Below are positions 27,121-32,730 of a DNA stretch of 36,393 bases, piece after piece. The notes under the pieces were generated by a model that had not been told where the DNA came from, did no database searches, and saw only the letters and a list, made by a program, of their open reading frames with translations. The stretch lies in the IMG/VR virus record IMGVR_UViG_3300047297_000069, positions 1 to 36,393 of that record. One strand, given 5' to 3'. The stretch comes from a virus. The position numbers and the translations under genes were made by a program. Positions within the stretch are counted from its first letter, which is position 1. Every line of letters begins with the position of its first letter.

Positions 27121-27795
27121 TCATACATACCGCCAACCGGGCTGGCCGATCTGGCAGTAACGCGACACCGCACGGGGATGCAAACCCAAAACAGCCGCTG
27201 CCAGCGCCGCACTAGGAAAGTTGCCGTTAGGCGTCTGCACAGGCTTGGCACACGGGTGATTGCTGCGATCCCGTAGGTGATCCGCCGACCGCTTTCCCGT
27301 CCGCCCCTTAGCCCGCATGTCGGCCATGTTCTCCATATGCGTGCCGGATCTCAAATGGGCCGGATTGACGCAGGACGGATTGTCGCATGAGTGCATAACC
27401 ACCGCCGTCGCCACATCACCCGTCGCCAACGCGTGGGCCATCCGATGGGCCAACACCGTGTAGCCGCCGAGCGAGATCATGCCGTAGCCAGCCTTATTGC
27501 GCGTGCCGGTCCAAATATGGCAAGCATCCTTGCCACCGCTCGCGTCAACCTTGGCGCGAAACTTTGCGTTTAATTCGCTCGACCAGTTCGGCAGCAGCAA
27601 CATGACCCCAGCACCAGCAGACAACGCATTGCGTGCTGCGGTTGTCACACCCTTCACCTGTGCGCCCACGTTGGCATCATACTGCCGCTGATACTCTTGC
27701 CGCTGCTTGAGCCGACGTTCGCGCATGTAGCAGGCTTGGCACATGCCCCTGACGATGGCGACCTTGTCAGCATGATTTTTGCAGGAAGTGTCCAT
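27121..27795 (-). CDS. HNH endonuclease with NUMOD-like C-terminus, 224 aa
   Basis: Numbered from MDTSCKNHADK (ATG 27795, GGAG spaced six bases): a C...H...C-x-x-C segment at the N-terminus (residues of about 5-22) is a possible zinc knuckle. The HNH_3-type core follows: CHIWTGTRNKAGYG, AHRMAHAL, and HSCDNPSCVNPAHLRSG. The C-terminal 40 residues (NGNFPSAALAAAVLGLHPRAVSRYC) resemble the NUMOD1-like units in the early block. It could be a free-standing homing nuclease or an HNH partner of terminase, as known for some cos phages. The frame is open upstream to a TTG. Confidence 0.88.
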   Translation of the reverse strand: MDTSCKNHADKVAIVRGMCQACYMRERRLKQRQEYQRQYDANVGAQVKGVTTAARNALSAGAGVMLLLPNWSSELNAKFRAKVDASGGKDACHIWTGTRNKAGYGMISLGGYTVLAHRMAHALATGDVATAVVMHSCDNPSCVNPAHLRSGTHMENMADMRAKGRTGKRSADHLRDRSNHPCAKPVQTPNGNFPSAALAAAVLGLHPRAVSRYCQIGQPGWRYV

Positions 27796-28214
27796 GAGGT
27801 TCTCCAATGTTGTGCGCGTTATATAGTATGTGTGCGTTATGTGGACAATGGGTTCCCTGAATGTTAGAATTTTTTTTTATTCGGGTTGGCAGGATGTGTG
27901 AAGGGGAGCAGCAGCAGCCGCCCCGCCTTAACCCCCTATACCGGGGGGGTCACCTCGGTTCGCGTGCCATTCTGACGCCGCTGCCGTCTATATAACGCGT
28001 TCAATCTGCGAATGCCTATTCTGTCCAATGTCCGCCTCAACAATATCAATGACTTAGCCTATCTGCCACATTATGCCCCAATATCGTTAACTGACAGTGA
28101 ACACCAAGCCAGCAAAATGGGGTAACCAGCTACCACCAAGGCCGACCGAAGCCGGCCCCGGCTCGCCTATGCCCACGCGAGGCGACGTGTCCTCTGGGTT
28201 GGTCCAACCCCCGT
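27796..28214. other. Non-coding, structured 0.4-kb region
   Basis: No convincing reading frame is present. It contains a perfect 12-base inverted repeat (CGCGTTATATAG at 27815-27826; CTATATAACGCG at 27988-27999) and a G/C hairpin at 27931-27950 (ACCCCC/GGGGGT). Two further hairpins are a seven-pair stem with a UUCG tetraloop when read leftward (28140-28157) and a 7-bp palindrome at 28196-28210. The last lies just past the stop of the leftward gene at 28215. Candidates for its role are operon boundary, promoter region, packaging (cos/pac) site or a structured RNA. Confidence 0.6.
27820..27848 (-). promoter_or_regulatory. Candidate promoter for the HNH gene
   Basis: Read leftward: TTGTCC (27843-27848), a 17-base spacer, then TATATA (27820-27825). 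The start of the HNH gene lies 25 bases beyond the -10-like box. The -10 box sits inside one arm of the 12-base inverted repeat. The match is partial (four of six in each box), so this is only a candidate. Confidence 0.4.
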
Positions 28215-29008: not shown

Positions 29009-29604
29009 GTGACGATCAACCCTTGAATCGCATCATCAAACTTTCCTGCTTCGTCGCCAAACGCGGTCCACCCATTGCGGGTTTTACGTGAAAACAGATC
29101 AAGACGCTTTGCATTGGGCATAAGTTTCTCAGCAGCGGCATATGCCTCCTCTGGCTTTTCCGAATGCGCGCGACCAGAACCTGATCCGCCAAGTCCCATA
29201 ATCAGCGACCTAACATTTCGTTGGTTCTTTGGCTTTCCTTTGCGAGCAAGTATGATCGGCTCACCAGAGCAACGGAATCCATAACCAGTGCCAAACGCAA
29301 TCTTGCCTGTCTTGGTTAGCTTGCCCCAATAGCCAAGCGTGGAATACCGAAAGCCCCACGCAGGTAGGCACTCCAAAGCCAGCGGTAGGTTGGCCCCCGT
29401 AGCCCATAGCCACAGCAGGCAGTCGCTTGCTGCAACTTCACCCACAGGCAAAGACTTTATGACGTCCAGCGGCATGGTTTTGTAATGCGCCTGCGGTGAT
29501 TTATTCCCCCCTTTGGTACTGAATGTTGCGAAATGCCACGGCGGGTCTGCCATGATGAAATCCCATCCGCCATCAGTCTCTGGAATGTTGAAGGTGTTTG
29601 TCAT
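29005..29604 (-). CDS. MT-A70 family adenine-N6 methyltransferase
   Basis: The catalytic motif DPPW is at residues 20-23 (FIMADPPWHF). Further MT-A70 features are LLWLWATGANLPLALECLPAWGF, CSGEPIILARKG, and HSEKPEEAYAAAEKLMP followed by LDLFSRKTRNGW. The enzyme would transfer methyl groups to adenine N6, probably on phage DNA to evade host restriction (family knowledge, inferred here). No restriction partner gene is adjacent. It overlaps the deaminase stop (ATGA). Confidence 0.92.
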   Translation of the reverse strand: MTNTFNIPETDGGWDFIMADPPWHFATFSTKGGNKSPQAHYKTMPLDVIKSLPVGEVAASDCLLWLWATGANLPLALECLPAWGFRYSTLGYWGKLTKTGKIAFGTGYGFRCSGEPIILARKGKPKNQRNVRSLIMGLGGSGSGRAHSEKPEEAYAAAEKLMPNAKRLDLFSRKTRNGWTAFGDEAGKFDDAIQGLIVT

Positions 29605-30083
29605 GCTTGCTCATCCTTGGCCTGCACCGGGCCGCGAGCCTGATCCTGATATTTGCCTTGGTACGCTGCGGGCACGGCCAGCTTGCTGAACATGACCTGC
29701 GCGATGCCTGACCCTGCCTTGATGTGCAGCGGCTTTAGCCCGTGGTGAACCAGTTCGAGCGTGAGGTATCCCCTCCAACCCGGTTCGATCACCGTATTGA
29801 ACACGGCCAGCCCGCGCCTTGCCCACGTCGACTTGTCGTGGACCACGCCGACCAGATCGAACGGCATGTTGAATTCTTCTACCGCCGACGCCAGTGTGAA
29901 GCGGCCTTGCTTCCACTCGCCATCGACGCAGACGCCATGCTCACCAAAAAAAACATCTTGCTCAATTCGTATATCATAGCCCGCGAGTGATAGCCCGTGG
30001 CTGACCCCGTTAAATATATGCTTGCTCGTCAGCATATCTTTAATCGGCGCTGCCTTAATAAGTTCCTGCCCGTTGATGATCAT
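29601..30083 (-). CDS. dCTP deaminase/dUTPase family protein
   Basis: I chose the ATG at 30083 (MIINGQELIKAAP), preceded by GGGAG; upstream frame extension runs into repeat-rich DNA. The 160-residue protein has LSLAGYDIRIEQDV, the catalytic Glu region AVEEFNMP (aligned to TLESVTLP of E. coli Dcd; E69), KSTWARRGLAV at 84-94, and EPGWRGYLTLEL at 100-111, all conserved in the trimeric Dcd/dUTPase family. It would make dUMP, or dUTP, for thymidylate synthesis with ThyX. Whether it is a mono- or bifunctional deaminase, or a dUTPase, cannot be told. Confidence 0.85.
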   Translation of the reverse strand: MIINGQELIKAAPIKDMLTSKHIFNGVSHGLSLAGYDIRIEQDVFFGEHGVCVDGEWKQGRFTLASAVEEFNMPFDLVGVVHDKSTWARRGLAVFNTVIEPGWRGYLTLELVHHGLKPLHIKAGSGIAQVMFSKLAVPAAYQGKYQDQARGPVQAKDEQA

Positions 30084-30121
30084 ATTCCGCTCCCGTTTAG
30101 TTTGTTGCGATGAGTTTGATT

Positions 30122-30167
30122 CGTGCCGTCGATCCGGTCGGTCGCTCTGACCCGTGCCGTCGATCCG
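30122..30167. repeat. 15-base direct repeat
   Basis: CGTGCCGTCGATCCG occurs at 30122-30136 and again at 30153-30167, a spacing of 31 bases, about three helical turns. It lies close to the start of the deaminase gene. Confidence 0.8.
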
Positions 30168-30236
30168 CCCTGCTTGGTGTTGACCGTCGTCCGAGATCGT
30201 CTCCATTGGCCGGCGTTATCCTGCTGCTGTTCGCTA

Positions 30237-30338
30237 GGATTTCCCCTATTGCAAACTACCGGCTCGCTGACAGTCCGCCACAGGCGAGCGGCAGTGGCGG
30301 ACTCGTCCGCCGCAGGTAGTTTACTATAGGGGAAATCC
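30237..30338. repeat. 24-base near-perfect inverted repeat with inner hairpin
   Basis: The arms 30237-30260 and 30315-30338 are complementary at 21 of 24 positions; the three mismatches are central. Nested inside is a 10-base perfect inverted repeat (AGTCCGCCAC at 30272-30281; GTGGCGGACT at 30294-30303). The DNA could form a cruciform, and any RNA across it a long hairpin. Confidence 0.9.
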
Positions 30339-30406
30339 AGCAGCGGAAGATTTGTTTTTACCTGTTTTCCGCCACTGGTCCGCCACTGGAAAAACCCACT
30401 GGCGGA
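30274..30406. repeat. Iteron-like repeats of TCCGCCACTGG
   Basis: Two exact tandem copies lie at 30368-30378 and 30379-30389. Near copies are at 30274-30284 (10 of 11) and 30306-30316 (9 of 11). Inverted near copies are at 30291-30301 (10 of 11) and 30396-30406 (10 of 11). Such arrays often bind a replication initiator; here they lie immediately after the primase-helicase gene. Confidence 0.7.
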
Positions 30407-30408
30407 CG

Positions 30409-32730
30409 TCAAAACTGCTCTCCAACACGGCTAGTGGAACGCAGGCCCTTGCGGTCTTTGTACTGCCCGGACGACCGATAGGTGAACTCTTCCAGCAAGC
30501 CGTTTTCGATCCAATGCTTGATGATCCGTTTGGCCTGTGCGTCGTTCTTGGTGTGCTTGGCGATCTCGAACGGGAAGTTCGTTATAACAGATCCGGCGAA
30601 GCGTTCTTTGTCCTGCGGTCGGCTGCTATAATGCTCAACGCCGTCGTCCGTTAAAATACCGGCGTTGATTAAGCTTAGGATCTTGTTGACGGTCTTTTCG
30701 TCCATGCCCTCCCACTCGTCGGGGAGTGTGAACGGGATGCAGACGCCGACGTATTCCCCGTTGCCGATCTTGACCCCGATCATGCGGCGGTAGACGGACG
30801 CTGCGGCCGGCGGTGCGAGATTGGCCTTGCCGTCGTCTACCCTGAAGATGCCCTTGGCTTCGTCCAGCGGTATGCCCAGCTTGATGGCGTCGTCTTCGCT
30901 GATCTTGTTGACTACGCGGGCAGCCCTGACGGCTCCTATGAGTGCGCCGGCCCCTCTGACGCTGTCCACCGAGGCATCCTCTCCGTTGCCCTTGCGGATG
31001 TGGTGGACTAGGGCGATGCCGCAGCCAGCTTCGTCTGCCACGCGTCGGATCTCGGCCACGACGGCGTTCACCGCACCGTTGTCGTTCTCGTTCACGTTGT
31101 GCGCACCGACGAGCGGGTCGATGAAGATCATGCCGATGTCCCATTCTTTGATCTTGCGCACCATGTATTCGACCAAGGCGATGTTGGGGACGACCCCGTC
31201 GCGGGTTTGCGTGCCGAATTTCAGGCTGAAGTCTCGGCCCGCGCTGACAAACAGGCGCCCCTCGATGTCGTCCTGTGTGATGCCGTAGTGTTCCATTGCC
31301 GCTGTGATGCGGCGGTCAAGTTCCTCTAACGGATCTTCAAGGTTGATGATCCAGACGTTGGTGCGTTCGTGGACCTTTTCGCCGAGCAGTTCGCGCCCAG
31401 TGCAGATGCACAGCCCTTCCACGATCTGCAGGCTTGTCTTGCCTATGCCGCCGGCCGATGCCAACAGGCTGACGAATGAACGCAGGTAATGGTAGCCGTA
31501 GATCCATCGGCGCGGCGGGATGTTGTGGCCCATCTTCGCCTTGTACGGCATGGGCCACTCGGCTGCAGGTGACGGTGGCTCCTGCTCGCCCATGGGGATG
31601 TCGATGTAATCTTTTGTTGCGGGCTGATCCAATTGCTTGGGCGCAACGTAGTCGAAATCATCCAACGGGCCGACCGGGATGTCGGACGGCGGCGATGCGG
31701 AGATTGGCGGCTTAATCTCCGCACCGTAGGCCCGCACGGCGGCCTTAAAGTCGCCCTGATGTTCATAGTGCGCAAACAGGTCGAACGCGTCGCCGTAGCA
31801 GTATGCGTTGTCGCCCATTGATTTGGCCCTGCCGATGGCCGCAGCCGCATCAGATCCAGACAGGCTGACCCAGTGCGTGCCGAAGTTCTGCGTGGCGAAG
31901 CTGGCCGACGATTGGTAGCGCGATCTGTAATGGTCGGATGATCCGCGCCGCTCGTAACCGTATTTCAGCAATAGGTCGGCGATGCTGTGGGCCGCGTTGA
32001 ATGCGTCCACCGGGTTGGCATCGTCGGGATGCTGCAGGCGACGCTCGGCCCGCTGCTGTTCGCGGTGACGGCGGCCGATCTCTGCCTGCTCGTTGGCAAG
32101 GCGGCGCTGCTCTTCACGGCGTTCGACCTCTTGCATGATCGGGTTGCTGTCGGTCAGGAACACGTTGCGACCGCGAAGGATCTCGAAATCATAGAATTTT
32201 GGTTGGAGATCCGGCCCGCGCTTGTTCATGGGGATGTTCGGCAGATAGATCGGCTGACCGCAGCGGGCCAGCGCACCGTCGGGGACGATCCCGTGTTGGC
32301 GCAGCAGGTCGAAGAATGCGGATTGGATGTCCTCATATTCCGCCCCGGTGATCGGTGCAGCCAGAGGCAGCAAGGCCCGCCATTTGCGCGTCTCTTCGCT
32401 GGCCCCTGACGATGAGTAGACAATCATGCTGACATCGCCCAGCACGTCTCTGACGGCCTGTACGACCTCTTGCTTGCTTGGGTTGCCGATGTCGATGTCG
32501 ATGGCCAGCATGCGATACATGCCATGAACGCGCTGGGCGTCGTGGGATCTGCCGTCGTGGCCACGGTAGGTTGACGGGATGAAGAAATCTGCGTCGGCTT
32601 TGTCTTTGGCTTGCGGCTCTTTGACCCTGCGCACGATGTCCGGCCAAGAGATGCCGGGGTAAGTTTGGTCGGGCTGGTCGATCAGTGTGAAGTAGCTGCC
32701 GTGCGCCATCAGGAAACGGATGTCACTCAT
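30409..32730 (-). CDS. Primase-helicase (AEP-like primase plus RepA-like helicase), 773 aa
   Basis: N-terminal residues 1-190 look like an archaeo-eukaryotic-type primase: a D-x-D pair in LAIDIDIG (D78, D80) and VYSSSGASEETRKWRALLPL. Residues of about 250-336 resemble a primase zinc-free accessory domain (DAFDLFAHYEHQGDFKAAVRAYG). The C-terminal helicase has Walker A ASAGGIGKTS (424-433), NLEDPLEELDRR, Walker B IGMIFIDPL with D538, and VHHIRKG (575-581), the RepA-like pattern. It should unwind and prime phage DNA. The start lacks a clear ribosome site. It lies directly beside the iteron-like region. Confidence 0.88.
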   Translation of the reverse strand: MSDIRFLMAHGSYFTLIDQPDQTYPGISWPDIVRRVKEPQAKDKADADFFIPSTYRGHDGRSHDAQRVHGMYRMLAIDIDIGNPSKQEVVQAVRDVLGDVSMIVYSSSGASEETRKWRALLPLAAPITGAEYEDIQSAFFDLLRQHGIVPDGALARCGQPIYLPNIPMNKRGPDLQPKFYDFEILRGRNVFLTDSNPIMQEVERREEQRRLANEQAEIGRRHREQQRAERRLQHPDDANPVDAFNAAHSIADLLLKYGYERRGSSDHYRSRYQSSASFATQNFGTHWVSLSGSDAAAAIGRAKSMGDNAYCYGDAFDLFAHYEHQGDFKAAVRAYGAEIKPPISASPPSDIPVGPLDDFDYVAPKQLDQPATKDYIDIPMGEQEPPSPAAEWPMPYKAKMGHNIPPRRWIYGYHYLRSFVSLLASAGGIGKTSLQIVEGLCICTGRELLGEKVHERTNVWIINLEDPLEELDRRITAAMEHYGITQDDIEGRLFVSAGRDFSLKFGTQTRDGVVPNIALVEYMVRKIKEWDIGMIFIDPLVGAHNVNENDNGAVNAVVAEIRRVADEAGCGIALVHHIRKGNGEDASVDSVRGAGALIGAVRAARVVNKISEDDAIKLGIPLDEAKGIFRVDDGKANLAPPAAASVYRRMIGVKIGNGEYVGVCIPFTLPDEWEGMDEKTVNKILSLINAGILTDDGVEHYSSRPQDKERFAGSVITNFPFEIAKHTKNDAQAKRIIKHWIENGLLEEFTYRSSGQYKDRKGLRSTSRVGEQF

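Follow-up and report, generated by a model that had tools for sequence, protein, structure and literature searches.

The window analyzed here, a stretch of viral DNA of 36,393 nucleotides, carries a gene for a primase-helicase, with SSB, exonuclease and Holliday-resolvase genes upstream of it and a dCTP deaminase-like gene downstream, the start of which was inferred from alignment to the relative L001. The annotated genes around this locus are on the minus strand, and between the primase-helicase and dCTP deaminase-like genes lies a cluster of short repeated words, together with a large palindrome (Table 1). The dCTP deaminase-like gene is swapped for other genes in relatives that retain the array. 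An HNH endonuclease gene is found downstream of the replication genes, at 27121–27807. Elsewhere in the window, 34977–35264 matches DUF6378 (1.4e-29), and the phosphofructokinase label carried by the PHROGs for this region and by CRP811_7 is probably wrong.

Table 1. Features of the primase-helicase gene and of the word array behind it, in window positions.
Feature	Position	Strand	Basis or remark
dCTP deaminase-like downstream gene, neighbour outside the module	29601..30083	-	PHROG 1663, 2.4e-52
102-nt interrupted palindrome, inverted word copies inside	30237..30338		arms 30237-30263 / 30312-30338
Word copy CCTGTGGCGGA within hairpin	30274..30284	-	word search
Word copy GCAGTGGCGGA within hairpin	30291..30301	+	word search
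Looser sixth word copy within hairpin (TCCGCCGCAGG on +)	30306..30316	-	repeat search
A+T-richer spacer from tandem words to hairpin; possible opening site (putative role)	30339..30367		sequence
Word copy CCAGTGGCGGA, exact, in tandem with the next	30368..30378	-	word search
Word copy CCAGTGGCGGA, exact	30379..30389	-	word search
Word copy CCACTGGCGGA, inverted, closest to the stop codon	30396..30406	+	similarly placed in L001, L004, L124, L013
Primase-helicase gene, 773 aa	30409..32730	-	Pfam AAA_25, 8.5e-34
Predicted C-terminal winged helix codons (residues 676-773), proposed word-reading domain	30412..30705	-	AlphaFold2; joint exchange with array
Predicted recognition helix codons (residues 730-742)	30505..30543	-	model; helix of Roseobacter-type homologue tracks word

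The locus had been singled out as a candidate origin, described as a 325-base array (30084–30408) of iteron-like repeats with a long inverted repeat, and both the repeats and the inverted repeat proved to be real and non-random. Allowing at most one mismatch, the word CCAGTGGCGGA (= TCCGCCACTGG) occurs five times in the window, always within 30274–30406; shuffling the whole window gave a mean of 0.94 copies, and five were reached in 1 of 100 shuffles. When 555 overlapping 325-bp segments were scanned, five or more copies of any 10-mer were found only in those over the array region. The six copies or near copies originally described, two of them exact and in tandem, were all recovered, five within one mismatch and the sixth looser. 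The core module spans 30237–30408, with the primase-helicase stop codon immediately next to it, and it is this part of the predicted array that stands. The direct repeat at 30117–30167 lies outside it: 20-nt copies are present at 30117 and 30148, at the reported spacing of 31, but the duplication behind them is absent from L001 and L004. This repeat is therefore probably incidental, and was dropped as a part of the origin.

A coding constraint on the 30080–30412 frame would have spoken against an origin, but none was found, as the matching frame is closed by stops in L001, L004 and L124; judging from these alignments, the frame is not protein-coding and the array region is intergenic. GC skew, proposed as a check, supports the origin weakly if at all. 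Over the window, its cumulative minimum falls within the helicase gene, at 31173, and four complete CRP phage genomes show no skew mark or switch at the array; I therefore rejected it as independent evidence for the origin. Comparison of the array region DNA to plasmids and phages gave chance-level matches only.

The palindrome has 27-nt arms that are 89% complementary, and a nested inverted pair of 15 nt (30272–30286 / 30289–30303), thus recovering in longer form the 24-base inverted repeat (21 matching positions) and the nested 10-base one initially noticed. As a single strand it folds at −39 kcal/mol, versus −14.8 for shuffles (z −9.9). The palindromes of L001 and L004 are intact, and in L124 and L013 the structure is retained with compensated changes in the arms (fold z −6.1 and −5.6), so that the arms differ yet still pair, as GGATTTCCCCTA/TAGGGGAAATCC in the window and GCCAACCCTA/TAGGGTTGGC in L124. 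So strong a hairpin might act as RNA (a terminator, a processing site or a small RNA), with the repeats as its by-product. However, a terminator scan made no call on the minus strand and found one terminator-like site, at chance level, on the other strand, and an Rfam search gave no match. Furthermore, where the copies in the stem change, so do the tandem ones outside it, which RNA pairing does not require, and I consider a role as RNA very improbable.

The primase-helicase combines, in one polypeptide, a primase-like N-terminus, an RSF1010 RepA-type helicase (∼residues 402–670) and a predicted C-terminal winged helix. RSF1010 RepA is its best PDB match both by sequence (1g8y, 1.3e-9 with the single sequence and 3.1e-18 with a profile) and by fold (1olo, Z 17.5, rmsd 3.4, 205 residues), in agreement with the RepA-like helicase of the original prediction. 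The helicase core belongs to the RSF1010 RepA type, with a RecA fold, rather than to the SF3 helicases found in pRN1; AAA_25 was the only Pfam match to the window protein, with no DUF927 or D5-type helicase of the kind seen in SaPI and Cch2. For the N-terminus, matches to PHROG primases are weak (1e-5 to 2e-9), no Pfam primase was matched, and a profile search of the PDB gave nothing convincing; the fold search was largely confined to the helicase part. Motif I of PrimPol-PV1 (hhhDhD) is present as LAIDID, with D78 and D80 invariant in 17 sequences, and D151 and R156 are invariant candidates for motifs II–IV, motif II (sxH, or its Q/Y variants) not being clear. Based on the weak profile matches and the DxD motif, this region is referred to as primase-like.

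In the full-length AlphaFold2 model, the C-terminal block consists of helices 678–690, 705–717 and 730–742 and strands 746–752 and 759–765, with a pLDDT of about 80 over most of the block. This is the winged-helix pattern of three helices and then a beta hairpin; it is not confidently seen when the domain is folded alone (pLDDT 44), and that model was not used. In winged-helix proteins, the helix preceding the beta hairpin is the usual recognition helix. Pfam and PDB profile searches with the C-terminal domains gave nothing convincing and no matching solved structure.

Relatives were gathered by searching viral contigs with several family members, yielding more than 100 loci, and an array was scored where a ∼10-bp word occurred four or more times in a 230-bp window after the primase-helicase gene. 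This was the case for 91 of the 106 relatives with enough sequence, with the array right behind the stop codon in 79 and in a window starting 300–800 bp downstream in 12; in the sequences inspected, the downstream-shifted arrays are preceded by inserted genes. The other 15 have fewer than four copies, several of them three. Seven loci (L011, L016, L064 and L118–L121) were excluded from the 106, for a distant helicase, a shared primase part only, or a broken frame. Dinucleotide shuffles rarely gave more than two to three copies, and other windows of the same locus seldom matched.

The words themselves are diverse. That of the window, CCAGTGGCGGA, is shared with L001 and L004; CAGTGGCGCA is found in L013, L023 and L124, AGGTGGGGAAA in L003 and L015, TGTATAAA in CRP-821, CRP-831 and L063, ACTACAAA in CRP-811, CRP-823 and L046, and TGTCCTAAA in L051–L057. 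Further words exist, and lineages differ in word while several positions remain fixed. Among Roseobacter-type arrays, several sites hold similar offsets from the stop codon despite different words, and the hairpin core CCCTTTAGGG is constant among those aligned.

Several other arrangements were observed in the course of this survey. Genes lie between the primase-helicase and the array in L023–L031, L032 (where one is PAPS-reductase-like), L033 and L036. Small stand-alone proteins resembling the helicase C-terminal domain are encoded at L002:7337–7732 and by an ORF shortly past the helicase stop codon of L122; they lie past the helicase gene but ahead of the array, and give the impression of a duplicated reading domain. 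In the Microcystis phage Mae-Yong1326-1 (L131:3637–4170), an array of the word GACTGGCGCA lies behind a distant RepA-type helicase; this is just 27% identical, yet the array is accompanied by a near-perfect hairpin with 27-nt arms, and an exact 23-bp repeat is present in copies 359 bp apart. A Rhodobacteraceae contig (L016, after 8304) has GTCGAACCT repeats behind a helicase of a different type, sharing only the N-terminal primase part. No array was found behind the gene in Vibrio phage 1244, which matches the N-terminal part only, or in Rhizobium phage RHph_X2_26 (L011). Unrelated dense 10-mer repeats (CAGCACAGCG, CGCCTGGTCG), with up to 19 copies in 250 bp, occur ∼4 kb (L058) and ∼5 kb (L064) after the helicase match, and ∼2.6 kb after the helicase in L122.

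Since the array lies between co-directional genes, in the window and in annotated relatives, it could be an operator through which the C-terminal domain regulates its own operon or the next gene, with replication starting elsewhere. Iteron binding is often autoregulatory as well. However, no sigma-70-like promoter was found in a scan of 29900–30600, and operators normally lie upstream of the gene they regulate. In addition, the array stays with the primase-helicase, from which it may be separated by inserted genes, and not with the next gene, which is a dCTP deaminase in some phages and hypothetical in others. I therefore regard an operator as unlikely.

The word follows the C-terminal domain of the protein. 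Across 51 non-redundant arrays, and with sequences that are mutually related, phages with similar C-termini tend to share a word once body identity is controlled for (partial r 0.21, 0 of 2000 permutations); with the C-terminus controlled for, body identity shows no such association (r 0.02, p 0.20). One relative, L124, illustrates this: its body is 83–88% identical to the clade of L002, L003, L015, L122 and L123, but its C-terminus is only 18–24% identical to that clade, versus 53–60% to the window, L001, L004, L013 and L023, and its word is that of L013. By these comparisons L124 is a chimera, its body apparently coming from one clade, and its C-terminus and word from another.

Comparison of four CRP genomes (CRP-811, CRP-821, CRP-823 and CRP-831) revealed a natural exchange. 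The structural, packaging and SSB proteins of CRP-823 are mostly 97–100% identical to those of CRP-821 and CRP-831; relative to CRP-821, the exceptions include the fibre, the exonuclease and small accessory genes. In the primase-helicase, however, the last 106 residues of CRP-823 are 70% identical to those of CRP-821, and the word is switched. Conversely, CRP-823 shares its word with CRP-811, with 98% identity over the last 106 residues, while the portal proteins are 52% identical. The word ACTACAAA occurs ten times in CRP-811 and ten times in CRP-823, always in the array, and once in CRP-821, outside the array. At the DNA level, CRP-823 and CRP-821 are 90–100% identical until 340 nt before the primase-helicase stop codon, 48–80% identical from there to about +200 nt, and again 85–98% identical over the 480 nt beyond. 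The difference is thus a ∼540-bp cassette with sharp borders, comprising the last ∼110 codons and the array, and this confinement indicates that the exchanged piece is the C-terminal domain plus the array. As shown by sequence comparison, the putative reading domain and its words form one cassette that recombines as a unit between phages, and the word of a cassette changes at all of its sites together.

The same genomes bear on a further reading, in which the array serves packaging or recombination and has nothing to do with the primase-helicase. Short repeats can indeed serve for terminase or recombinase binding. Nevertheless, TerL and TerS are both 100% identical between CRP-823 and CRP-821 despite their different words, and the array follows the C-terminus of the primase-helicase; a site of this kind has hardly any probability.

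The C-terminus adjoins the array, so a single crossover moves both, and exchange or correlation alone is therefore no proof of recognition. This objection is weakened, though not removed, by displaced arrays that keep their word type, and by a scan of alignment columns. In 33 Roseobacter-type proteins, the C-terminal 350 residues were scanned for association with the word after overall identity had been regressed out; the scan used no tree, and corrects only roughly for shared ancestry. Of the top 25 word-tracking columns, 20 are in the last 100 residues (p 3e-7). The strongest include residues 699, 702, 703, 706 and 707 of L046, which are spaced as one helix face and sit on the predicted recognition helix, preceding the beta hairpin.

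Alternatively, a separate DNA-binding protein of phage or host could read the words and then recruit the primase-helicase, as RepC does in RSF1010, where three polypeptides are used (PMC4234260), and the relatives do have small HTH genes. However, the wHTH gene by the exonuclease is 98–99% identical across CRP phages with different words and, among CRP-811, CRP-821, CRP-823 and CRP-831, went undetected in CRP-811. Tracking of the word by another HTH protein (97/92/81%) is only weak. The best word-tracking columns are on the C-terminal helix of the primase-helicase, the sole protein scanned by column. A separate reader is thus quite improbable, and of the two kinds of reader first proposed, the primase-helicase or HTH proteins, the C-terminal winged helix of the former is the likely one.

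Position, architecture, conservation and cassette exchange across ∼100 relatives together argue strongly for the candidate origin. The cluster of words and hairpin very probably marks the start of genome copying, and it is likely that 30237–30408 is a self-specified replication origin, with the C-terminal winged helix of the adjacent primase-helicase as its reader. Covariation and exchange suggest that this domain binds the iterons, the ∼11-bp words right behind its own gene. Several primase-helicase molecules would then gather on the words, leading to loading of the RepA-type helicase with no need for a separate initiator such as RSF1010 RepC. The duplex may open at the A+T-richer spacer or at the hairpin, and the primase-like N-terminus would place the first primer on the exposed single strand; the hairpin is perhaps used for priming, like the ssi sites of RSF1010 or the pRN1 stem-loop.

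Parallels to each of these elements exist. In Staphylococcus, SaPI Rep and SCCmec Cch2 use their C-termini to recognize iterons downstream (PMC7581432); as proposed here, the C-terminal domain of an initiator helicase serves short iterons located just past its own gene, but these helicases are of the DUF927 or D5 type, whereas that of the window is of the RSF1010 RepA type and the element is a whole phage. The pRN1 stem-loop behind the primase-helicase gene is required for pRN1 replication, and both pRN1 ORF904 and Bordetella phage BIP-1 have a primase-helicase with a C-terminal winged helix and a ∼100-nt downstream stem-loop, the structure of which is kept despite sequence change (PMC4234260). 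The palindrome described above likewise keeps its pairing as its sequence changes; pRN1 and BIP-1 differ in having an SF3 helicase and no iterons, while words and stem-loop occur together here. In the PLE satellites of Vibrio cholerae, the initiator domain and the origin vary together, and only cognate pairs function (PMC8263062). There too the DNA-binding domain and iterons are exchanged as a module, but that domain is RepA_N, with no predicted helicase or primase, and two types are found rather than many words.

The helicase itself has other relations. RSF1010 RepA/RepB′/RepC and oriV offer a RepA-type hexameric helicase, iterons and origin hairpins, but with three separate proteins, including a dedicated iteron binder, whereas the primase-like and helicase parts are fused here (PMC4434180, PMC4234260). 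Among the architectures of PrimQH and all3500 (PrimPol-PV1) is a primase joined to a RepA-type helicase, to which PrimQH adds a C-terminal winged helix, for which a role at the origin is a suggestion (PMC5862659). Primase motif II lacks the canonical His or Gln in the protein described here. Phage P4 alpha has a bacterial-type (Toprim) primase, and its helicase is of a different family from the RepA type. It is, as proposed here, a single polypeptide, with a winged helix on origin repeats, that unwinds and primes (PMC4234260).

SaPI, pRN1 and PLE show these elements singly; here they are joined, with iterons and stem-loop, in phages, and the relatives compared show that domain and word have been replaced jointly more than once. 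The best reading is that the origin would work like those of the SaPI Rep/ori, SCCmec Cch2, pRN1 and PLE replicons, with a RepA-type helicase. Tentatively, the locus may further be a hypervariable origin-recognition cassette, in which word and reading helix switch together to give mutually incompatible origins, the diversity being kept by selection from origin-targeting nucleases, satellites or competition in co-infection; I consider this possible but rather doubtful.

These results point to a probable replication origin in this phage and in the isolated Roseobacter phages of the CRP-822 group; origins of replication, iterons and repeats did not come up when the main text of the group's paper (PMC12629253) was searched by term. 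They also provide a clean case of origin modules swapped between otherwise similar phages, and a natural series of many similarly placed pairs of word and recognition helix, from which the specificity code of the initiator domain can be derived. CRP-821 and CRP-823 share an isolation host, Roseobacter sp. FZCC0197, which makes the origin prediction directly testable.
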